A DNA stretch of 64,000 nt from Ignavibacteriales bacterium (lineage in GTDB: Bacteria > Bacteroidota > Ignavibacteria > Ignavibacteriales > Melioribacteraceae). The translations under genes and the position numbers were made by a program. The stretch is from assembly GCA_020061355.1 (NCBI GenBank), contig JAGUYK010000044.1, forward strand, positions 1-64,000, in the 5' to 3' direction. This document shows positions 26,724-47,644 of this stretch, piece by piece (within the stretch, counting starts at the first letter, position 1; every line of letters begins with the position of its first letter). The notes beneath the pieces are model-generated. The model saw only the letters and a program-made list of their open reading frames with translations, was not told the DNA's origin and searched no databases.

Positions 26724-29700
26724 TTGTTTTTATCAAAATTAGAAATCTTCGGATTCAAGTCGTTTGCAAATAGAACAAATATTGCATTCAACCGTGGTAT
26801 AACCGGAATTGTTGGTCCAAACGGTTGCGGTAAAACTAATATTGTGGATGCTATCCGTTGGGTTTTAGGCGAACAAAAAACTACAACCCTACGTAGCGAT
26901 AAAATGGAAAACGTTATTTTCAACGGAACGCGTGAACGCAAACCAATGGGTATGTCCGAAGCATCTCTAACACTTGTTAACGATCGGGGAGTTCTACCTA
27001 CTGAATATTCGGAAGTAACAATAACCCGGCGAATTTTTAGATCCGGCGAAAGCGAATATCTTCTTAATAAAAACATCTGCCGACTTAAGGATATAACCAA
27101 CCTTTTTATGGATACAGGTATGGGAACAAATGCCTATTCTGTAATTGAATTAAAAATGGTTGAAACAATACTGAGCAGTAAAGCAGAAGAAAGGAGAAGA
27201 CTATTCGAGGAAGCAGCCGGTGTTAATAAGTACAAATTAAGAAGACGTCTTTCACTTAAAAAACTTGATGATGTTAAAACAGATTTAACCCGCGTTAATG
27301 ATATTGTTTCTGAAGTTGAAAAGACTGTTCGCTCACTTGAAAGACAGGCAAAGCGTGCAGACCAGTTTAATCAAATTCAATCTGTGCTTAGAGATAAGGA
27401 AATTGACCTTGCCGAAAGAGAGTTCACTCTATTTCACCTGAAGATGGAAAGCCTGAAAAATGAAATTTCCGTTTTAATTTCTACAAAAGAGTCGACCGAT
27501 ACAGATATACGAAAAATTGAAAATGAACTGATAATATTTAGGAACCAGATAAATACCATAGAAACCGAGTTACAGCAAAAGAGGAATGAAATTTCATCTA
27601 ATACAGATCAGCTCCACCAAACGCAAAATAGCATTTCCGTATCTGAGGAGCGATTAAATTCTTTACAAAAAAACCATACCCGGTTAACCAAAGAAATCGA
27701 AGAATTAAAGCAGAGGTTGGTTGAGACAGTAAACGAAATCAAGCATTTAGAGGAAGAATCGTCCAATCTAAACATCAACGAAAATTCAAAAACTGAAGAA
27801 ATAAAAAGTAATGAGTTTCTAATAATTGAAAAACGCAGCACTCTTGATCAAAAAAGAATAGAACTAAAAAACCTGATAGAAGAACGATATAATCTGCTAA
27901 AGGATATTTCTGAAAAAGAAAATTTAATGGGTGCTATTCAAAAAGAACTATCTTCTCACACATCCAATATTGAGAAATTAAACTTAAAGATACAGACTAT
28001 TACAATCCGAATAGCTAAAACTGTCGGCTTCATTGAAGAACTTTTTAATGAGAAAACGGATGCAGAAAAAAAATTAACCGAAACCGGTCTTCAGATTACA
28101 CTGAGAGAAAAAGAGAAGTCCGAATTAGAATCCGTTCTTAATTCTCTAAAAGAAAAAGAGATTGAAGAAAAAGCATTGTTAACAAACTTAAAAGAGAAAA
28201 TAGAATTTCTTCAGACATTAATTTCCAACCTTGAAGGTATTTCAAAAGGATCAAAAGTACTTTTAGAGAATAAAGACTGGAGTCAAACAGAGAAAAATAT
28301 TTTTGCCTACGTTGGTAATACACAGGACAAATATAAATTTGCACTGGAGGCAGGTTTAAAATCCGTCTTAAACAATCTGTTAATAGAAACAGTTGATGAA
28401 CTACAAAACGCTATTAATTACCTGAAGAATAACGATTTAGGAAAAGCATCATTTTACTTACTAAAAAATCATGTTGACCGTAAAAAAACATTATTAGAAA
28501 AATTCACTGAATATAGTACAAATAGGAAATTAAAGAAGATTGAAAAAGAATCTTCGTTTATCGGATGGACAAAAGATTTTGTTGAATCAGAGCCTAAATG
28601 GAAACGTTATTTTGATCAGGTGTTGATTAAAATAGCAATTACATCCGGGCTGAAAGAGGCTATTGAACTTCATAACAAATACCCTGAGTTCGGCTTTGTT
28701 ACTCTTGACGGGGATATAATACAAAGCAGCGGCATTATTGAAGCCGGATCTATGCCAAAACAGGATGAAACTATTTTCGGACGGAAACAGTTACTGGAAA
28801 ATCTTAAGAAAGATTTTCCAAAGCATGAATCCGGACTTGAAAAAATAAAATCACAGATTACCGAAACTGAATTAAAACTATCCCGGATCGATCTCAAAAA
28901 CTTGAGCGACAGCGAGAGATTAATTTCTAACGACATTTCCAATATCGAAAAGCAAATATCTCAACTTGAATTCGAACATAAAAAAGCCAACGAAGAAGTT
29001 GAAACTTCACAAAAAGAAATTCAGGAGTTTGTTGATAAATCCAATCTTCTGCATGATCAATTAAATGAGTTGTCGGGATTATTAGATCAATTGCAATCAA
29101 ACAAGACAAGCCTTGATCAAAAAATAAATGATTACGAGAACTCATTAAACGATTTCGAAAATGATTATAATCTTTTAATTGAAAATCAAAACAGTAGAAA
29201 ATTGGAGCTCGAAAGAACCAAAGGACAAATTAAAAATACAAACGATTCGATCCAGAGATCAAAAAACGACAGTATAACTACACAGAATGGTATTGAAAAA
29301 CGTGAAACCGACCTTAAATCAAACAAGGCCGAAACTGACTCACTAATAAACTCTATCAAAGGAACCAGGAGCGATCTTGAAAAGATTAATTCCATCAGGG
29401 TTCTCCTTGTTAAAGAAGAAAACGAAATTGACGAGAAACTAAAATCACTTAAGGACGAAGCTAGCAAATTTGAGAAACAATTAAATGATCTTAGAAACGT
29501 CAGACAGGAGGTTTCTGATAATATTCACACCTTGGAGATAAAAGAAAATGAAATAAATTTTAGAATTGAAAATATACAGCAGCATATCAAAGAAAATTAC
29601 TCGCTGGATATTGAACTAAAACAATTCGAGGATCTGGATACATTCAATTTTGATGAAATTACAAAAGAAGTTCAATCATACAAAGAGAAGTTGAAAAATC

Positions 29701-30317
29701 TTGGTCCGGTTAACCTGCTTGCATATTCTGAATACGAAGAAGAAAAAACACGATTAGATTTTTTACACAAACAGCGCGACGACCTTATTGATTCCGAACG
29801 CGATCTGATTAAAACTATAAATGAAATAAATGATACTGCTCAAAAACTGTTCCTGGATACATTCGAACAGATTCGGCAAAATTTCAGCAATATTTTTCAA
29901 ACCCTATTTAATCCGGGAGATGAAGCAGATTTAATATTGGAGGAAAACGTCGATCCTCTTGAAGCAAAAATTGAAATTGTTGCAAAACCAAAAGGTAAGC
30001 GCCCAACTTCAATAGAGCTGTTGTCGGGAGGAGAAAAAACACTAACTGCAACGGCGCTCCTCTTTGCTATTTATCTGGTAAAGCCCAGCCCATTCTGTAT
30101 TTTAGATGAAGTTGATGCCCCGCTTGACGATGCTAATATCGACCGCTTCACAAAATTACTTAAAGAGTTCAGTATTAAAACACAGTTTATCATTGTAACT
30201 CATAACAAAAGAACAATGGAATCAGCCGAAGCCATGTATGGTGTTACAATGCAAGAAGAAGGGATATCCAAACTTGTTGGTGTAAGGTTTGAAGAGATTC
30301 CCGAATCCCAAGAATAA
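26724..30317 (+). CDS. smc: Chromosome segregation ATPase SMC
   Basis: An 1197-residue structural-maintenance-of-chromosomes protein that loops and compacts the chromosome. Walker A GPNGCGKT is at 31-38. Two long coiled coils flank a hinge (about 520-680, around FALEAGLKSVLNNLLIE). The C-terminal head has the signature LSGGEKTLTA (about 1099) and Walker B CILDEVDAPLDD (about 1121). Its N-terminus FLSKLEIFGFKSFANRT matches the family, so the TTG at 26724 is the start, helped by GAGAGG 9 bases upstream. No scpA or scpB is in this window. Confidence 0.97.
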   Translation: MFLSKLEIFGFKSFANRTNIAFNRGITGIVGPNGCGKTNIVDAIRWVLGEQKTTTLRSDKMENVIFNGTRERKPMGMSEASLTLVNDRGVLPTEYSEVTITRRIFRSGESEYLLNKNICRLKDITNLFMDTGMGTNAYSVIELKMVETILSSKAEERRRLFEEAAGVNKYKLRRRLSLKKLDDVKTDLTRVNDIVSEVEKTVRSLERQAKRADQFNQIQSVLRDKEIDLAEREFTLFHLKMESLKNEISVLISTKESTDTDIRKIENELIIFRNQINTIETELQQKRNEISSNTDQLHQTQNSISVSEERLNSLQKNHTRLTKEIEELKQRLVETVNEIKHLEEESSNLNINENSKTEEIKSNEFLIIEKRSTLDQKRIELKNLIEERYNLLKDISEKENLMGAIQKELSSHTSNIEKLNLKIQTITIRIAKTVGFIEELFNEKTDAEKKLTETGLQITLREKEKSELESVLNSLKEKEIEEKALLTNLKEKIEFLQTLISNLEGISKGSKVLLENKDWSQTEKNIFAYVGNTQDKYKFALEAGLKSVLNNLLIETVDELQNAINYLKNNDLGKASFYLLKNHVDRKKTLLEKFTEYSTNRKLKKIEKESSFIGWTKDFVESEPKWKRYFDQVLIKIAITSGLKEAIELHNKYPEFGFVTLDGDIIQSSGIIEAGSMPKQDETIFGRKQLLENLKKDFPKHESGLEKIKSQITETELKLSRIDLKNLSDSERLISNDISNIEKQISQLEFEHKKANEEVETSQKEIQEFVDKSNLLHDQLNELSGLLDQLQSNKTSLDQKINDYENSLNDFENDYNLLIENQNSRKLELERTKGQIKNTNDSIQRSKNDSITTQNGIEKRETDLKSNKAETDSLINSIKGTRSDLEKINSIRVLLVKEENEIDEKLKSLKDEASKFEKQLNDLRNVRQEVSDNIHTLEIKENEINFRIENIQQHIKENYSLDIELKQFEDLDTFNFDEITKEVQSYKEKLKNLGPVNLLAYSEYEEEKTRLDFLHKQRDDLIDSERDLIKTINEINDTAQKLFLDTFEQIRQNFSNIFQTLFNPGDEADLILEENVDPLEAKIEIVAKPKGKRPTSIELLSGGEKTLTATALLFAIYLVKPSPFCILDEVDAPLDDANIDRFTKLLKEFSIKTQFIIVTHNKRTMESAEAMYGVTMQEEGISKLVGVRFEEIPESQE

Positions 30318-30343
30318 AACGAACAATAATTAAAAAAGAGAGA

Positions 30344-31069
30344 ATGCTGACGGAGCGAAACTTTAAAATATTTGTTGACTTCGATGGAACTATAACAACC
30401 CAGGATATTGGCGAAGCTATGTTTCTTAAGTTCGGCGATCCCATTCGCGCCAATGAAATAATTGAAGATTGGATTGAGCAGAAAATTAATGCACGAGAAA
30501 GCTGGCAACTGTTGTGCAATACTGTAAAAAATTTTGAAATAAAACAGTTCGAAAAATTTTTGGATGACATGAAAATAGATTCGACTTTTAAAATTTTCAA
30601 TGAATATTGCTTATCAAACAAATTTGAAATGAGAATTCTAAGCGACGGACTAGATTTATACATTGAAAGGATAATGAATCGGGAAGATCTTGACGATATA
30701 GAAGTTTTTTCGAACAAACTTTTATTTGGGAGTAATAACGAACTAATACCTGTTTTCCCCCATACAGATTCAGAGTGCAATAGATGTGCAAACTGCAAGC
30801 GCAATCATATCTTAAATTTTAGCTCCGAGGATGAATACAGTGTATATATCGGCGACGGGTGGTCTGATGTTTGTCCCGCACAATATTGTGATTTCATCTT
30901 CGCAAAAAATTCTTTACTAAAGTATTGCGAGTCGAACAGAATTACATATTTCCCATATAACAATTTTAATGATGTTATCATAAAGTTAGATCAATTAAAA
31001 CAGAAGAAGCGCTTGAAAAAACGGTATCTAGCTGAATTAAAAAGAAAAGAAGTTTATAAACAGGGTTGA
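30344..31069 (+). CDS. HAD-IB family phosphatase (MtnX/SerB-like)
   Basis: A 241-residue haloacid-dehalogenase phosphatase. The nucleophile motif is FVDFDGTITTQDIGEAM; motif II lies near RILSDGLD and motifs III/IV at YIGDGWSDVCPAQ. The pattern resembles MtnX-type and phosphoserine-phosphatase-like enzymes. The insert has two cysteine pairs (CNRCANCK), possibly a metal site. No methionine-salvage genes are nearby, so the substrate is open. Its stop overlaps the TTG just ahead of the next gene, and that gene's ATG lies 2 bases after the stop. Confidence 0.8.
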   Translation: MLTERNFKIFVDFDGTITTQDIGEAMFLKFGDPIRANEIIEDWIEQKINARESWQLLCNTVKNFEIKQFEKFLDDMKIDSTFKIFNEYCLSNKFEMRILSDGLDLYIERIMNREDLDDIEVFSNKLLFGSNNELIPVFPHTDSECNRCANCKRNHILNFSSEDEYSVYIGDGWSDVCPAQYCDFIFAKNSLLKYCESNRITYFPYNNFNDVIIKLDQLKQKKRLKKRYLAELKRKEVYKQG

Positions 31070-40988: not shown

Positions 40989-43166
40989 ATGCCCGATTAC
41001 CTTTCGCAATCCGTTCAATACCTAAAATCAGTTGGGCCAAAGCGTGCGGATTCCTTTGCCAAAATCGGAATTAAAACCATAAAGGATCTATTACTTTACT
41101 TCCCGACCAGATACCTCGATAGATCAACAATCTTATCCAGCATAAAAATTCTACAATATATTAGAGACGGTTACGATGGAGAGGTAACAATTATCGGTGA
41201 AGTTGTTGCAAAAGATTTGATACGGTACGGTAAAAAACAGATATATAAAGTAAGGATGAAGGACGGCGGAGGATATTTTGAATGTGTCTGGTTCCAGGGT
41301 GCAAAATATTTCAAGGAAATATTTAATCAGGGCGAATTCTATGCTGTCTCAGCAAAACCGGTTCTAACCAAATATGGACATTTGCAATTCGTCCATCCCG
41401 ATTTTGATCGTTTAGCCGAAAAAGAATCGAAGGAGTTTATGCATACCGGTAAAATAATTCCATTCTATCGTGTGCCAAAAGATTTACGTGCTGCTAATCT
41501 TGGTGACTTTAGTTTAAGAAGAATTATTAATAATGCTGTTGATAATTATTCTGAAAAAATTCAGGAAACATTACCCGAACATATTGTTTCTCAAAAAAAA
41601 TTATTGGATTTAAACTCTACCATTAAGAATCTTCACTTCCCTGATAGCGAAGATACACTTAATACCGCCAGATACAGAATTAAGTTCGAAGAGCTCTTTT
41701 ATTTTGAATGTATGGTTGCACTTAGAAAAGCCATAATAAAAAAGAAGCGTAAAGGGACTGCGTATAAAATCCATAGTGAACCGTTAAAAATATTTTTAGA
41801 TTCACTCCCCTACCAGCTTACCACAGCACAATTAAAAGTCTTATCGGAGATAAGAAAAGACCTTGAAAGTGAAGAGCCGATGAACCGGCTGCTTCAGGGA
41901 GATGTTGGAAGCGGTAAAACTATTGTTGCTTTAATTAGTATGCTGATTGTAATTACTAATGGATTTCAAGCAGTTCTAATGGCCCCGACAGAAATATTAG
42001 CGGACCAGCATTTTAAAAGACTCTCAAAAATGTTAGAGCCGCTGGGAATTAATGTATCTGTTTTAATCGGGGGACAAAAAAAATCGGAACGAACAAGAAT
42101 TCTAAATGACATTTCTACCGGCAGCACAAAATTGATTATTGGAACTCATGCCTTAATTGAAGAGAATGTAGAATATGACCGACTCGGATTAATCATAATC
42201 GATGAGCAGCATCGTTTCGGGGTAGTTCAGAGATCAAAATTAATCCGCAAAGGGATTCAACCAGATGTTCTTGTAATGACTGCCACACCGATACCAAGGA
42301 CTCTCTCCATGACAATTTATGGAGACCTTGATACATCCATAATTGATGAAATGCCGCTTAACCGCAAACCTGTTAAAACTTACTTAAGGGGAGAGAATAA
42401 ATTAAACGATGTTTATAAATTTATTGTTGATAAATCAAAAGTTGGATATCAGGCTTTTTTAGTTTATCCACTTGTCGAAGAATCCGAGAAGTTAGAGCTG
42501 AAAGCGGCCGAAACCTATTTTAATGACCTTACAGAGAATCACCTGAAAGAATTAAATGTTGGATTGATTCATGGAAGAATGAGCTGGCAGCAGAAGGAAA
42601 ATGTGATGCTTGATTTTGCTGAAAAAAAATATGATGTGCTTGTTTCAACCACTGTTATTGAGGTCGGCATTGACATCCCCGACGCCAATATAATTATTAT
42701 AAATGACGCTTTCCGATTCGGTTTGTCTCAGCTGCACCAATTGCGAGGAAGGGTTGGACGCAGTGATAAACAGGCATATTGCATACTAATAACAAAAAAT
42801 GAATTCGCTGTTAAAACAAATCAATTCAACTTCAGATTCGATTATTTATCCGAGGAACAGATCGAAAAGAACAAATCCATTATCCGGCTCAATGCAATGC
42901 TTAAATACTCCAGCGGTTTTGATCTTGCCGAGGTTGATTTAAAACTTCGCGGACCCGGAGATATTTTCGGAACCAAACAGAGCGGTCTGCCCGAACTGAA
43001 ATATGCAGACGTTGTAACAGACTATAATCTTCTCATTGAAGCAAGAGATACTGCATTCGAAATTATCCTGGACGATCCGTCATTAAGCAAAGAAAAAAAT
43101 TCTGTAATCAAAAAAAATCTAAAAGAGAATTTTTCAAACAACATTTTACTTTCACAGATCGCATAA
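40989..43166 (+). CDS. recG: ATP-dependent DNA helicase RecG
   Basis: Branch-migrating helicase that reverses stalled replication forks. The 725-residue protein has an N-terminal wedge/OB domain (about 50-150), Walker A GDVGSGKT (about 303), the DExH box DEQHRFG (about 406), TATPIPRTLS, the GLIHGRM region and the C-terminal QLRGRVGR motif. Start at the ATG at 40989. No terminator is apparent before the next cluster. Confidence 0.96.
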   Translation: MPDYLSQSVQYLKSVGPKRADSFAKIGIKTIKDLLLYFPTRYLDRSTILSSIKILQYIRDGYDGEVTIIGEVVAKDLIRYGKKQIYKVRMKDGGGYFECVWFQGAKYFKEIFNQGEFYAVSAKPVLTKYGHLQFVHPDFDRLAEKESKEFMHTGKIIPFYRVPKDLRAANLGDFSLRRIINNAVDNYSEKIQETLPEHIVSQKKLLDLNSTIKNLHFPDSEDTLNTARYRIKFEELFYFECMVALRKAIIKKKRKGTAYKIHSEPLKIFLDSLPYQLTTAQLKVLSEIRKDLESEEPMNRLLQGDVGSGKTIVALISMLIVITNGFQAVLMAPTEILADQHFKRLSKMLEPLGINVSVLIGGQKKSERTRILNDISTGSTKLIIGTHALIEENVEYDRLGLIIIDEQHRFGVVQRSKLIRKGIQPDVLVMTATPIPRTLSMTIYGDLDTSIIDEMPLNRKPVKTYLRGENKLNDVYKFIVDKSKVGYQAFLVYPLVEESEKLELKAAETYFNDLTENHLKELNVGLIHGRMSWQQKENVMLDFAEKKYDVLVSTTVIEVGIDIPDANIIIINDAFRFGLSQLHQLRGRVGRSDKQAYCILITKNEFAVKTNQFNFRFDYLSEEQIEKNKSIIRLNAMLKYSSGFDLAEVDLKLRGPGDIFGTKQSGLPELKYADVVTDYNLLIEARDTAFEIILDDPSLSKEKNSVIKKNLKENFSNNILLSQIA

Positions 43167-43299
43167 ACTTGCTTTTGAAAAAAATTTTACTCCGACATCT
43201 CTATCTCACACTCAAAAAAAAATTGCCGATTAACTTGCAAAAAATTTATTAATAGTTATATTAGTACCAAAAGATTGGAAGGAATTCTGTATCAGTTCC

Positions 43300-44364
43300 T
43301 TGGTACGAAATAAAAAATTAAAAGTTGCCCTTACATATAATGTCAAACCGGAAGAATCCTCTTTCGAATCCGCACAGCTCCCTCTTAAATTAAAAAACTC
43401 TTCTTCGTACAACGATACTTATGCTGAATGGGATACGATTGAAACCGTAAATGCAATTAAAGATGCTCTTGAACACTATCATGATGTCATTATGATCGAA
43501 GCTAATGAAAATGCATTCGAAAAATTTAAAGCCGTAAGACCTGAAATTGTCTTTAATGTTGCTGAATGTGAAAATGGAATAAGCAGGGAAGCACAAATAC
43601 CGGCAATGCTGGACATGCTTAAGATCCCATATACAGGTTCCGACCCTCTAACTTTAACAACTTGCTTAGATAAATCGAGGACAAAGGAAGTTCTGACATA
43701 CCATAGTGTCGCCACTTCAAAATTCATTTATGCTGAAAGCCTTGATGATCTTAGAGATTTTCGTCTGAGCTTTCCCGTAATTATCAAACCGATCTCCGAG
43801 GGATCCGGGAAAGGTATCTTTAATTCATCATTGGTAAGCAACTTAAAAGACTTGTCAGAACGGCTGACTGAAAATCTTTCTAATTACAATCAACCATTTA
43901 TTATTGAAGAATATTTACCGGGCAGAGAATTTACCGTTGCTGTTATGGGCAACAATTCTGACACAGAAGTACTGCCAATAGTAGAAATTAATTTCAATGA
44001 ACTTCCGGGTGATCTTCTTCCCATTTATTCGTTCGAGGCTAAATGGGTTGTAGATACTCGGGATAATCCCTTAAATATTTTTACATGTCCGGCTAAGGTT
44101 GACAAGGTTCTTGAAGAAAAGATAAAAGATGTTGTATTAAGAACATATAAAGTTTTGAGATGTAAAGATTGGAGTAGAATTGACATTAGATTAGATGCAC
44201 AAGGAGAACCTAATATAATTGAGGTCAATCCTCTACCGGGGATACTTCCGAAGCCGGAAGATAATTCTTGTTTTCCTAAAGCCGCCCGCGCTAAAGGTTT
44301 GAATTATGAAGAAATGATTAACAAAGTACTTTTAATAGCAGCTAAGAGATATAATTTATTATGA
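43300..44364 (+). CDS. ATP-grasp ligase related to D-Ala-D-Ala ligase (first of a tandem pair)
   Basis: A 354-residue ATP-grasp enzyme. The N-terminal part holds VRPEIVFNVAECENG and LKIPYTGSDPLTLTTCLDKSRTKE, as in D-Ala-D-Ala ligases. The C-terminal ATP/Mg site reads RIDIRLDAQGEPNIIEVNPLPG (Asp, Glu, Asn ligands). The family's GEDG substrate loop is replaced by ECENGISREAQ, so it may join something other than D-alanine. The only usable standard start is TTG at 43300, 16 bases after the GGAAGGA site (43277-43283). An ATC at 43291 would fit that site better. The stop overlaps the next gene as ATGA. It heads a four-gene operon with a second ligase, a GNAT and a KamA-type enzyme. Confidence 0.8.
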   Translation: MVRNKKLKVALTYNVKPEESSFESAQLPLKLKNSSSYNDTYAEWDTIETVNAIKDALEHYHDVIMIEANENAFEKFKAVRPEIVFNVAECENGISREAQIPAMLDMLKIPYTGSDPLTLTTCLDKSRTKEVLTYHSVATSKFIYAESLDDLRDFRLSFPVIIKPISEGSGKGIFNSSLVSNLKDLSERLTENLSNYNQPFIIEEYLPGREFTVAVMGNNSDTEVLPIVEINFNELPGDLLPIYSFEAKWVVDTRDNPLNIFTCPAKVDKVLEEKIKDVVLRTYKVLRCKDWSRIDIRLDAQGEPNIIEVNPLPGILPKPEDNSCFPKAARAKGLNYEEMINKVLLIAAKRYNLL

Positions 44365-45419
44365 ACCTTGACAGAAAAGTTATGATCTGTTTTAACGAAC
44401 CGACGAGATACTATAATAATTATCTTGGTAAAGAAATATCCGAAGGAACCGAGAACATCGACTTATCGGAAAGTGAATTTTTAAAACAAATCGACAACAT
44501 TAAAAAAGTTTTGTCGAAACAGTTCATAAGTGTTGAAACTTTGGCTGTTAACAATGATATCCGTTATGCCATAAAAAAAATTACCAACTATTCTCCTGAT
44601 GTAATTCTTAACTTTGTTGAATCGATTGAAGGTGTTTCCAACCTCGAAAGTTTTATCGCAGGGGTTTTTGACTTAATGGCTGTTCCCTATACCGGAAACA
44701 ACCCAATCTGTTTAGGAAATTGCCTTATCAAATCGAGGACAAAACAAATACTTAATTCACATGGAATTAAAACACCGAGATATTTCATAGCAAAGCTAAA
44801 TCATTATCCAACTCCTAAAGAATTATTATTACGATATCCGGCAATTCTAAAACTTGTTAGAGAGGATGCAAGTATCGGCATTTCTGAGTTTTCAGTAGTT
44901 AATAACCATAACAATCTTAAAGAACGGCTTAATTACCTTTTCTCCTCTTACAATCAGGATGTAATAATTGAAGAATACATTGAGGGTAGAGAGCTAAATG
45001 TTGCAATTCTTGGAGATCGAATTCTTCCAATTTCAGAAATTCGATTCGACGGATTACCGGAAGAGTTGCCTAAAATCATTACCTATGAAGCCAAGTGGTC
45101 GCCGACCAGTGTTTATTATAAACATACAACTCCAAAGTGCCCGGCTGTACTCGATAAGAAACTCAAAAATAAAATTGAACAGATGGCTTTAGATGCATAC
45201 AAAGCATTGGAATGCCGGGATTACGCTCGTATAGATATCCGGCTCAGCCAGAAAAATATTCCTTATGTTATTGAAGTAAATCCGAATCCCGATATTTCAC
45301 CAGATTCCGGTTTCGTTCGATCTGCTGCAACTGCTGGAATCGATTATGAAGAATTATTATTCATTTTAACAAATAGAGCTTTACAAAGAATGCCATATGA
45401 TACGCAAGCTGCTATATAA
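44361..45419 (+). CDS. ATP-grasp ligase related to D-Ala-D-Ala ligase (second of a tandem pair)
   Basis: A 352-residue paralogue of the preceding protein. It has VILNFVESIEGVSNLES in place of the ligase substrate loop, VPYTGNNPICLGNCLIKSRTK, and the metal site ARIDIRLSQKNIPYVIEVNPNPD. The two proteins are clearly related but far from identical, suggesting that they act on different amino donors or acceptors, or form a heteromeric enzyme. The start overlaps the previous stop by 4 bases, and the end overlaps the GNAT gene by 23 bases. A role in ordinary peptidoglycan D-Ala-D-Ala synthesis is unlikely given the pairing and neighbours. Confidence 0.8.
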   Translation: MNLDRKVMICFNEPTRYYNNYLGKEISEGTENIDLSESEFLKQIDNIKKVLSKQFISVETLAVNNDIRYAIKKITNYSPDVILNFVESIEGVSNLESFIAGVFDLMAVPYTGNNPICLGNCLIKSRTKQILNSHGIKTPRYFIAKLNHYPTPKELLLRYPAILKLVREDASIGISEFSVVNNHNNLKERLNYLFSSYNQDVIIEEYIEGRELNVAILGDRILPISEIRFDGLPEELPKIITYEAKWSPTSVYYKHTTPKCPAVLDKKLKNKIEQMALDAYKALECRDYARIDIRLSQKNIPYVIEVNPNPDISPDSGFVRSAATAGIDYEELLFILTNRALQRMPYDTQAAI

Positions 45420-45867
45420 CGATCGGTCGCAATTAGTAAAGATTGTAGAAGAGACTGAAAATTTCAGTCCGGAAGAGAAGCAAGTTGCAATTGAACTAAT
45501 TGATGAAGCTATAAATAATCCGAATCATGAATACTATAACACATTCGTTTATGAGGAGGAAGGGAAAATTTATGGTTATCACTGCACCGGGAAGAGAGCG
45601 TTAACCGATGGCGTATATGATCTATACTGGATAGTAGTCGATAAAAAAACACAGAATAAGGGACTCGGCAAAAAACTATTAGATCACGCAGAAAGTTTTG
45701 TAAAAGAAAATAACGGAAGATGGATTCTTGCTGAAACTTCTTCCAAAGACAATTATAATGCAACCAGGAATTTTTATCTCAGAAACAAATATTCTATAGT
45801 TGCTGAGATTCGGGATTTTTATAAAGTGAGCGATAATTTAATAGTTTTCGGAAAATACATAAAATAA
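45397..45867 (+). CDS. GNAT-family N-acetyltransferase
   Basis: A 156-residue acetyltransferase. The acetyl-CoA pyrophosphate loop is TQNKGLGKKLL (85-95), preceded by the strand YDLYWIVVD and followed by RWILAETSSKDNYNATRNFYLRNKY, the usual C-terminal GNAT half. The start lies inside the end of the second ATP-grasp gene. Next to a lysine 2,3-aminomutase-like gene the obvious parallel is AblB, which acetylates beta-lysine to N-epsilon-acetyl-beta-lysine. AblB proteins as I recall them are considerably longer, so this would be a different or minimal enzyme. Confidence 0.85.
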   Translation: MIRKLLYNDRSQLVKIVEETENFSPEEKQVAIELIDEAINNPNHEYYNTFVYEEEGKIYGYHCTGKRALTDGVYDLYWIVVDKKTQNKGLGKKLLDHAESFVKENNGRWILAETSSKDNYNATRNFYLRNKYSIVAEIRDFYKVSDNLIVFGKYIK

Positions 45868-45889
45868 CAAAACACAAAGGGCACAAGTC

Positions 45890-47086
45890 ATGGAACTCTG
45901 GCAGCAAATGGTTCGAGACAGTATTCATACAGTTGATCAACTAGTGGAAAAATTCAACCTTGATCGAAAAGTGGCAGAAGGACTTGATGAGTTCTTCCAG
46001 GCAAGAATAAATCCTTACTACCTTAGCTTAATCCGGTATCCCGGTGATCCGATCTGGCTTCAATGCGTTCCAGATGTAAAAGAGCTTGAAGATATTGAAG
46101 GTTACGAAGATCCTCTTCAAGAAGACGCAATGAGTCCTGTTCCTAATATCACTCATCGTTATCCGGATAGGGCACTTTTCTTAACTACAAGTCAGTGCGG
46201 AATGTATTGCCGCTTTTGTACACGTAAAAGAAAGGTCGGCAATTCGGATAAAATTTCAATGCGCCAGTTAGAATCTGCATTTAAATATTTGGAAGAGCAT
46301 AAGGAAATAAGGGACGTGATTATGTCCGGAGGCGATCCATTGATGCTTACTGATACAATGCTGGAAAAGATTCTGCAAAGACTAAGATCTATTTCGCACA
46401 TTGAAATTATCCGGCTCGGAACAAAGATGCCCTGTGTTCTTCCGCATCGTATAACTCCGAAGCTTTGCGAGATGTTAAAGAAATATCATCCGATTTATAT
46501 CAACACTCATTTTAATCATCCATGGGAAATAACACCTGAAAGTACAAAAGCATGCGAAATGCTTGCAAATGCCGGTTGCCCGGTTCAGAATCAATCTGTA
46601 CTTATGAAAGGTGTAAATGATGATGCAGAAGTAATGAGAGAATTATTAACAAAACTTCTTAAGATAAGAGTAAAGCCATACTACTTATACATGGCCGATG
46701 AAACACGCGGTGCTAATCATTTCCGGACATCAATTGATAAAGGATTAGACATTATGTTTAAGCTGCGCGGGAATACCAGCGGTCTTGCAATTCCGCACTT
46801 TGTAATTGATGCTCCGGGCGGAGGAGGAAAAATTCCGATACTCCCGCAATACGTACTTCATAAAGACGATCAAAGTATTGTTTTAAGAAACTACAAGAAT
46901 CAGATTTATGCTTATCACGAAGCTAAAAATGGGAATGGCAATGGGAATGGGCAAATGAAAACAACTGATTATGAAAATATTGAAGTGGAAATATCGAATA
47001 AGAAGAATGGTTCTTCAAAGAAACCCAAAAATTATAAAGATATATCTACCGTTACTGTTCCAGAGATGGAATCAAGCAAGAATTGA
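45890..47086 (+). CDS. KamA-family radical SAM enzyme, lysine 2,3-aminomutase type
   Basis: A 398-residue radical SAM, PLP-dependent aminomutase. The cluster motif CGMYCRFC has Cys103, Cys107 and Cys110. The PLP lysine is Lys314 in DAPGGGGKIP. In the Clostridium lysine 2,3-aminomutase the PLP lysine is 337 and the lysine side chain is held by Asp293 and Asp330. Here Asp270 (YLYMAD) and Asp307 have the same spacings (37 and 7), so lysine is the likely substrate, giving beta-lysine. The last 55 or so residues are a hydrophilic tail beginning with an Asn-Gly repeat. It is the last gene of the operon; a terminator follows. Confidence 0.86.
   Translation: MELWQQMVRDSIHTVDQLVEKFNLDRKVAEGLDEFFQARINPYYLSLIRYPGDPIWLQCVPDVKELEDIEGYEDPLQEDAMSPVPNITHRYPDRALFLTTSQCGMYCRFCTRKRKVGNSDKISMRQLESAFKYLEEHKEIRDVIMSGGDPLMLTDTMLEKILQRLRSISHIEIIRLGTKMPCVLPHRITPKLCEMLKKYHPIYINTHFNHPWEITPESTKACEMLANAGCPVQNQSVLMKGVNDDAEVMRELLTKLLKIRVKPYYLYMADETRGANHFRTSIDKGLDIMFKLRGNTSGLAIPHFVIDAPGGGGKIPILPQYVLHKDDQSIVLRNYKNQIYAYHEAKNGNGNGNGQMKTTDYENIEVEISNKKNGSSKKPKNYKDISTVTVPEMESSKN
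46928..46951 (+). repeat. Hexanucleotide tandem repeat inside the KamA gene
   Basis: Four copies of AATGGG/AATGGC encode Asn-Gly repeated four times at the junction between the catalytic part and the C-terminal tail. In-frame hexamers can change copy number without frameshift, so this may be a variable-length linker. Confidence 0.7.
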
Positions 47087-47114: not shown

Positions 47115-47139
47115 ATGCCGGATTTAATCCGGCATTTTT
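47115..47139 (+). terminator. Rho-independent terminator after the KamA operon
   Basis: Arms ATGCCGGAT (47115-47123) and ATCCGGCAT (47127-47135) around loop TTA, ending in five T. It lies 28 bases after the KamA stop and abuts the end of the convergent thioredoxin-like gene. Confidence 0.85.
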
Positions 47140-47644
47140 ATTTCCGGTAAATGATTCCTTTTAAATCCCTCTCTAATGATTCACCTGGAGATTCAATTAT
47201 TCTTCCTATCTCTTGATTGTTTTTATAAATAATAAAGGTGGGAACGTATTTAATATCAAGCTCATCCACATTCCCTTCGGGGCTTTCTTTTTTTCTATCG
47301 ACACAAATCAGAGAAATTTTTTCTTCGCTCACCGATGTTTCATCCATCAGTCGCAAAAAACGGGGTACTTCTCTTCTACTGTCGCTGCACCATGTTCCCA
47401 GAACCATTTTAATGGTGATATTCTCTAACTTACATTTAATCGAATCCAAAGTGGCTATGCTGAATTCATAGTTTTCATACTCAGAATCAAACCACCATGA
47501 GAAATTTGTATCGGCAAATGCGGTTCTATCACAAATCCCCAGAAGCATTGGTTTGCCGGATCTTTCATCAATCATCAATTTATTCTTTTCCTGGGCATTA
47601 CTAATAACGGCAATAAGTATAACCAACATTATCAACTTTTTCAT
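47138..47644 (-). CDS. Exported thioredoxin-like protein with a CxxS site
   Basis: A 168-residue protein with a signal peptide (about 1-17) and a thioredoxin fold (about 65-165). The active site reads GTWCSDSRREVPRF: Cys86 is present but the second position is Ser89 (CxxS), so it cannot form the usual disulfide. The cis-proline region is YVPTFIIYKNNQEIGRI. It may be a monothiol oxidoreductase, isomerase or chaperone in the periplasm. nadK is encoded 8 bases upstream. Confidence 0.8.
   Translation of the reverse strand: MKKLIMLVILIAVISNAQEKNKLMIDERSGKPMLLGICDRTAFADTNFSWWFDSEYENYEFSIATLDSIKCKLENITIKMVLGTWCSDSRREVPRFLRLMDETSVSEEKISLICVDRKKESPEGNVDELDIKYVPTFIIYKNNQEIGRIIESPGESLERDLKGIIYRK

Follow-up and report, generated by a model that had tools for sequence, protein, structure and literature searches.

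What might be produced by an operon that sets two ligases resembling D-Ala-D-Ala ligase (Ddl) beside an acetyltransferase and an aminomutase? The question is raised by four genes in the genome of an Ignavibacteriales bacterium (assembly GCA_020061355.1, contig JAGUYK010000044.1), in a stretch of 64,000 nucleotides that is called the window herein and that lies on contig 6 of the 3.69-Mb genome. We tentatively propose that the product is an acetylated amide in which beta-lysine is combined with an amine drawn from the arginine-derived polyamine pool. Judged by sequence, the firm elements of this proposal are the enzyme families, the catalytic residues, the gene order, and the physical linkage of the two ligases to polyamine genes in other organisms. 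From these we infer all substrates, the order of ligation, the acetylated position, and the product itself. The features of the operon, with the analyses applied to each, are as follows.

43300-44364, + strand: ATP-grasp ligase A, 354 amino acids, NPLPG...NSC motif (Pfam/NCBIfam, AlphaFold/Foldseek, tree, residues)
44361-45419, + strand: ATP-grasp ligase B, 352 amino acids, NPNPD...GF motif (Pfam/NCBIfam, AlphaFold/Foldseek, tree, residues)
45397-45867, + strand: GNAT acyltransferase, 156 amino acids (Pfam, PDB sequence match to 2r7h)
45890-47086, + strand: KamA-family radical SAM aminomutase, 398 amino acids (Pfam, NCBIfam, 2a5h alignment)
47115-47135, + strand: Rho-independent terminator hairpin, T-rich tail at 47136-47143 (read from the sequence)

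An earlier, sequence-only reading of this DNA described four tightly coupled genes that end at a hairpin terminator. This is borne out by the open frames, by overlaps of 4 bases (A/B) and 23 bases (B/GNAT), and by the gap of 22 bases between the GNAT and KamA genes. The gene for ligase A begins with TTG, the sole in-frame start between a stop at 43231 and position 43357. The operon closes with a perfect 9-bp stem and a TTA loop, followed by TTTTATTT.

Lack of conservation would have counted against that reading, but the same neighborhood proved to be conserved in other genomes. KamA is found at E<=1e-60 in 63 of the 198 genomes sampled from the window's phylum, and the order A-B-GNAT-KamA recurs in 27 of 27 relatives from the same class, which are all the class genomes with a KamA match besides that of the window. 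KamA is also present in 33 of the 34 phylum-sample genomes that carry ligase A at E<=1e-130, and in the exception (G047) the contig seems to end within B. The more distant KamA genes of the phylum (L073-L084, n=12) stand alone in eight loci, one of them (L083) cut by its contig, and accompany one A-like ligase in four. When GTDB species were scanned with ligase A, at least 572 stretches were confirmed, the best 80 of which are loci L086-L165. The closest ligase A among the named genomes listed is that of Melioribacter assemblies (84% identical; the window's own record was possibly excluded). The full order is found in 61 of 62 loci titled Melioribacter, Ignavibacteria, Kryptonia, Bacteroidota, or plain bacterium (L086-L147), and the sole exception ends at the end of its stretch. 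Of L148-L165, five loci belong to this same group, and each of them has the full order. The other 13 are titled as other groups (Deltaproteobacteria, Desulfuromonadales/-aceae, Geoalkalibacter, Nitrospinae/-ota, Thermodesulfobacteriota, Proteobacteria, Acidobacteria). These 13 include five with the full order, two with KamA-A, one with A-B-GNAT, and five with a gene for pyruvoyl arginine decarboxylase (PvlArgDC). In Candidatus Chrysopegis kryptomonas (L119:9621-10747), counted among the 61, the KamA gene is split into two frames and the other three genes are open.

The aminomutase carries the Pfam domains LAM_C and Radical_SAM, and its sole solved relative found by sequence is the lysine 2,3-aminomutase 2a5h (phmmer E 5.1e-118). 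The assignment of Asp270, Asp307, and Lys314 to the lysine-binding and pyridoxal phosphate (PLP) sites, made in the sequence-only reading, holds in this alignment, where they fall on D293, D330, and K337. We take the first two of these 2a5h residues to be lysine-binding and the third to be the PLP lysine. The cluster cysteines (C103, C107, and C110 in the window) align as well. In 190 collected KamA frames, representing 141 distinct sequences, the cluster cysteines, D307, and K314 are kept in all 190 and D270 in 185. The best NCBIfam model for the window's KamA is AblA (450.7 bits, under the cut-off of 525.4), which matches 24 of the 24 KamA members scanned. Models for glutamate 2,3-aminomutase (436 bits, cut-off 650), arginine 2,3-aminomutase (357 bits, cut-off 600), and EpmB (248 bits, cut-off 369) are also matched below their cut-offs, and that of the KamA subfamily TIGR00238 is exceeded. 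On the basis of its residues and family, KamA probably converts L-lysine to beta-lysine. The five frames that depart at D270 come from high-GC families of the same phylum (L080-L084) and carry Gln instead. Four of these adjoin just one A-like ligase, with neither B nor GNAT nearby, and the fifth is truncated by the end of its contig. The substrate of these enzymes may differ. Apparent ligase-GNAT fusions in three of the loci (L080, L082, L084) were rejected as over-extended starts of ligases of ~330 amino acids, and tblastn finds no GNAT there.

Ligases A and B share 38% identity across 278 residues, and both match the Pfam domain Dala_Dala_lig_C (125 and 118 bits, respectively). Each falls below the cut-off of every NCBIfam model listed (25 of 47 for A and 25 of 37 for B), with TIGR01205 reaching 148 bits for A and 142 for B versus a cut-off of 245.65. 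AlphaFold models of A and B (mean predicted local distance difference test scores of 84.5 and 88.7) have as their best Foldseek matches the Ddl structures 8evy_A and 3r5x_D. The 50 matches listed for each ligase are all D-Ala-D-Ala, VanA-type, or D-Ala-D-lactate ligases, and this search contributed nothing beyond a Ddl fold. The genome also has a separate Ddl-like gene with a GEDG loop and the usual acceptor motif (L015). We used the genome's own Ddl-like protein to root a FastTree phylogeny of 143 rows (354 sequences thinned at 70% identity to 141, together with the window's own A and B). A clade with support of 90 unites 59 high-scoring A sequences, the window's included, with no intruder. 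Another, with support of 99, unites 74 high-scoring B sequences with one lower-scoring B, and eight divergent A-like rows fall outside both. An unlinked third ligase is counted both in the B clade and among the 73 representatives of B discussed below. The earlier view that the two ligases diverge from normal D-Ala-D-Ala ligases is supported by their scores under the Ddl cut-offs shown.

The residues of the two ligases bear on what they might join. Both share with Ddl an Arg, an Asp, an Asn, and a Lys of the active site, which are invariant in A (n=58) and B (n=73), and the catalytic Glu is kept in 58 of 58 A and 71 of 73 B sequences. Unlike Ddl, both lack the GEDG loop, as the sequence-only reading had noted and as alignments and residue counts confirm, and their acceptor site is altered, most of all in B. 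Here we rely on the Ddl numbering and roles presumed for Gly276, Ser281, and Arg255, with Ser281 assumed to bind the carboxylate of the second D-alanine. Ligase A has Gly at the Gly276 place and Ser at the Ser281 place in 58 of 58 sequences. In B, the motif N[P/A/S]NPD puts Asp at the Gly276 place in 73 of 73 sequences, and the Ser281 place is occupied by Ala (44), Ser (21), Thr (6), or Gly (2), next to a Gly found in all 73. Because A retains the serine for the acceptor carboxylate, we hypothesize that it takes an amino acid as acceptor. Because B has an invariant Asp and no conserved serine, its acceptor might be positively charged and free of a carboxylate.

A candidate for such an acceptor is suggested by gene linkage outside the window's phylum. 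To the 13 loci titled as other groups, we added 14 new loci (L249-L262) from the phylum of the L163 genome, where ligase A was found at E<=1e-100 in 18 of 297 genomes sampled. In 14 of these 27 loci (five of 13 and nine of 14), the gene for PvlArgDC precedes the ligases on their own strand. Thirteen of the 14, including all nine from L249-L262, also hold an agmatinase gene and/or a relative of deoxyhypusine synthase (DHS). The PvlArgDC gene usually adjoins A, except in L249, where an extra ligase gene intervenes, and in L252 (about 490 bases). The order is DHS-agmatinase-PvlArgDC-A-B in L148, L152, and L157, agmatinase-PvlArgDC-A-B in L163, and PvlArgDC-B-GNAT-KamA-A in L161 (Nitrospinae). A GNAT gene lies downstream of B in six of the nine PvlArgDC-linked loci from L249-L262, and the other five loci of that set read A-B-GNAT-KamA (two), GNAT-A-B-KamA, A-B, and A-B-GNAT (one each). 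The identities of representative neighbors were checked by Pfam and NCBIfam, and the members scanned exceed the NCBIfam cut-offs for agmatinase (234 versus 174), PvlArgDC (145 versus 107), and DHS (309 and 322 versus 304), except that the DHS relative of L249 scores 89, far under 304. Because the ligase pair is embedded in such operons elsewhere, agmatine or a polyamine may be the amine that is joined.

Two other genes accompany some of these loci. The extra gene of L249 (L249:6634-7557) encodes a RimK-like ATP-grasp protein (PF08443, 22.7 bits), which hints that this lineage carries out a third ligation. In L249, L252, L257, L258, and L259, the gene after that of the GNAT encodes a methyltransferase, and all five fall in a single BLAST cluster. 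The L249 member is nearest to the PmtA/UbiE models, under their cut-offs, and the enzyme may act on the product or be part of the following operon.

KamA follows ligase A through the phylum of the L163 genome. At E<=1e-150 it is present in 18 of 18 A-bearing genomes versus six of 42 without A (Fisher 1.5e-10), a threshold that was set after the result was seen. At E<=1e-80, it is found in 23 of the 42 (Fisher 2.4e-4). The 42 were taken from 279 genomes without A at E<=1e-100. In some of these genomes (L295, L303, L305, L318-L322), KamA lies beside a more divergent A-like or B ligase, and thus the module is wider than our cut-off for A.

Taken together, a pathway can be outlined in which KamA would convert L-lysine to L-beta-lysine, as its residues suggest. 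Ligase A would then join beta-lysine to another amino acid, with an acyl phosphate as the intermediate, in the manner of Ddl. Ligase B would activate the free carboxylate of this dipeptide and transfer it to a carboxylate-free amine, such as agmatine, putrescine, or a derived triamine. Finally, the GNAT protein would acetylate one of the remaining amino groups. Given that an aminomutase of the lysine type is conserved together with two ligases that are not Ddl, an amide containing beta-lysine is the natural inference. The sequence-only reading, which envisaged an acetylated di- or tripeptide of beta-lysine, is supported in part: its gene order, aminomutase residues, and divergent ligases hold, but its osmolyte model is weakened because the GNAT protein is not AblB. 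Perhaps the product serves as a polyamine-like compound or a stress solute.

The genome of the window has genes that could provide such an amine. It carries two PvlArgDC genes (TIGR00286, 128 and 121 versus 107), one agmatinase (237 versus 174), one arginase (323 versus 228), and a match to 1,9-bis(guanidino)-5-aza-nonane synthase (586 versus a cut-off of 500), an enzyme whose name implies the joining of two agmatines. None of these is linked to the operon. No match to spermidine synthase (PF01564) was found in this genome. The class has matches, many of them weak or in frames of 700-1000 amino acids, with a few stronger ones, the best of which (2.1e-41) is in G066, a genome without A. Among 49 class genomes, 27 have both A and PvlArgDC, two have A only, four have PvlArgDC only, and 16 have neither (Fisher 1.7e-7), a value that ignores kinship, given that close kin are not independent and that whole families lack both. 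Relatives of DHS and arginase-family genes occur in 159 and 135 of the 198 phylum-sample genomes, respectively. Because they are so common, we relied on linkage rather than on their presence.

Several observations weigh against a polyamine amide. KamA is encoded elsewhere in the genome in 13 of the 14 PvlArgDC-linked loci, and thus genes for beta-lysine and for polyamines form one unit in L161 alone. The 27 operon loci of the class have no linked gene for PvlArgDC, agmatinase, or a DHS relative. In the reverse direction, the link was also rejected, since none of 20 PvlArgDC loci inspected in the class holds A, B, GNAT, KamA, agmatinase, or DHS. In 14 of these 20, the order by eye is SmpB-TyrS-PvlArgDC. 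Two A-bearing genomes of the class (G070 and G164) have no PvlArgDC match. In four loci (L080, L081, L082, L084), the KamA with Gln in place of D270 is accompanied by one divergent A-like ligase, and neither B nor GNAT is present. Furthermore, the acceptor-site argument comes from a comparison of motifs with Ddl rather than from a docked or solved complex.

The absence of linkage in the class is in favor of another product, an acetylated di- or tripeptide of beta-lysine without an amine cap, built as A and B add amino acids in turn and used as a compatible solute or signaling peptide. This is the central idea of the sequence-only reading, and we consider it unlikely, though the likeliest of the alternatives. 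All four enzyme families fit such a product, as does the serine that A keeps for an amino-acid acceptor, and the polyamine neighbors in other phyla would then reflect a shared precursor supply or chance clustering. However, the invariant Asp of B, together with its lack of a conserved serine, and the position of PvlArgDC upstream of the ligases in 14 of the 27 loci both weigh against an uncapped peptide.

Another explanation is that KamA and GNAT form the AblA/AblB pathway to the osmolyte N-epsilon-acetyl-beta-lysine, a pathway named in the sequence-only reading, and that the two ligases are accessories. The likeness is that a KamA-family aminomutase with lysine-type residues adjoins a GNAT gene, and AblA is the best model for KamA in the window and is matched by every member scanned. 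However, the window's KamA remains under the AblA cut-off (450.7 versus 525.4 bits), and the GNAT protein belongs to another family. Among solved structures, it comes nearest by sequence to 2r7h (E 3.8e-25), whose deposited name is 'putative D-alanine N-acetyltransferase'. The AblB model TIGR03827 is absent from the 12 families listed for the window's GNAT at E<=0.1 and is matched by three of 17 GNAT members (best E 0.0054), so we rejected the identification of the GNAT as AblB. In addition, the two conserved ligases have, to our knowledge, no role in that pathway. The osmolyte explanation is thus weakened to the point of being improbable. N-acetylglutaminylglutamine synthetase (TIGR03103) was likewise rejected, with matches in two of 17 GNAT members (best E 0.031), and it is not among the 25 families listed for A (of 47) or for B (of 37).

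A modification of protein, similar to the beta-lysylation of elongation factor P (EF-P) or to hypusination and with an ATP-grasp ligase in place of EpmA, seems equally improbable. KamA and DHS relatives represent the enzyme families of both known modifications of that factor. Agmatinase-like and DHS genes are also described as clustering with aIF5A in Euryarchaeota (PMC5178350). On the other hand, the EpmB model gives 248 bits versus 369, and therefore the EF-P-like modification suggested in the sequence-only reading did not find support from an EpmB-type KamA. Moreover, two ligases and a GNAT are more than such a modification needs. A cell-wall variant, in which the ligases build a beta-lysine peptide for peptidoglycan stems or bridges, would suit their Ddl fold but is very improbable, as the genome has its separate Ddl-like gene and no recurrent wall gene was noticed among the partly identified neighbors of the operon.

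Other systems help to place the proposed polyamine amide. Relative to 2a5h, the window's KamA differs in residing in a ligase operon and in being more distant than five unlinked KamA proteins of PvlArgDC-linked lineages (L177, L179, L180, L311, L316), which are 57-59% identical to 2a5h. The agmatine-based polyamine pathway is close to our proposal in that its genes (PvlArgDC, agmatinase, DHS relatives) are joined to the ligases in 14 loci and are present, unlinked, in the window genome. No ligase or aminomutase is known to belong to that pathway. In the fungal E-64 pathway (PMC12568646), an acid and an amino acid are linked with putrescine, cadaverine, or agmatine by two enzymes in turn, the first of the ATP-grasp type and the second an amide-bond synthetase. 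Therefore, the assembly of these three kinds of building block by two stand-alone ligases is real chemistry. The likeness is one of logic. In E-64, the second ligase is an adenylating enzyme rather than a member of the ATP-grasp family, and epoxysuccinate takes the place of beta-lysine.

All parts of the operon are of known families, and their combination and polyamine link were not found in previous descriptions. Specifically, the open-access literature, covered mostly by titles and the beginnings of abstracts, yielded no description of KamA with an ATP-grasp ligase or of a link to polyamine genes, and a 2009 gene-neighborhood survey of amidoligases (Mol. Biosyst.) might hold a prior prediction. 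PMC3543383 reads a KamA/acetyltransferase pair as AblA/AblB, and PMC2922099 does not mention 'aminomutase'. If true, our proposal would add an amide-bonded branch to polyamine chemistry and give a function to ligase and aminomutase genes of several phyla that are now named after better-known relatives. It would also place the solved acetyltransferase 2r7h and its family in a context and supply a pair of amide ligases that are small and stand-alone and are probably specific for an amino acid and an amine. More speculatively, and with considerable doubt, the operons might represent a widespread, as yet undescribed class of peptidyl-polyamines, in which beta-lysine from KamA is joined by two ATP-grasp ligases to agmatine or a guanidino/aminobutyl polyamine and acetylated. 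Such a modular polycation could replace spermidine in bacteria that, like that of the window, have no spermidine-synthase match.

Two further loci touch on these enzyme families. The third ATP-grasp ligase gene, which is unlinked to the operon and of the same type as B, lies on G000 contig 36 at about 28485-30490 (L085:4486-6487) and is also present in L268 and L323-L342. It is divergently paired with a C39-peptidase-like gene (PF03412, 26.6 bits), a neighbor in 17 of 22 loci inspected, and the two are possibly a second ligase-hydrolase system. Because it is unlinked and paired in this manner, we left this ligase out of the pathway. On G000 contig 12 (54187-55828; L343:4188-5829), a GNAT gene adjoins a gene resembling that for bis(guanidino)azanonane synthase. 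The best model for this GNAT is the spermidine/spermine acetyltransferase PaiA (61 bits, cut-off 250).

In the window, a RecG-like gene (40989-43166, named by eye) lies upstream of the operon, and convergent genes lie downstream. A terminator scanner listed the hairpin at 47115-47135 on the - strand only. The site is located between convergent genes, and because the hairpin is symmetric, it may act as terminator for the convergent gene at 47138-47644 as well.

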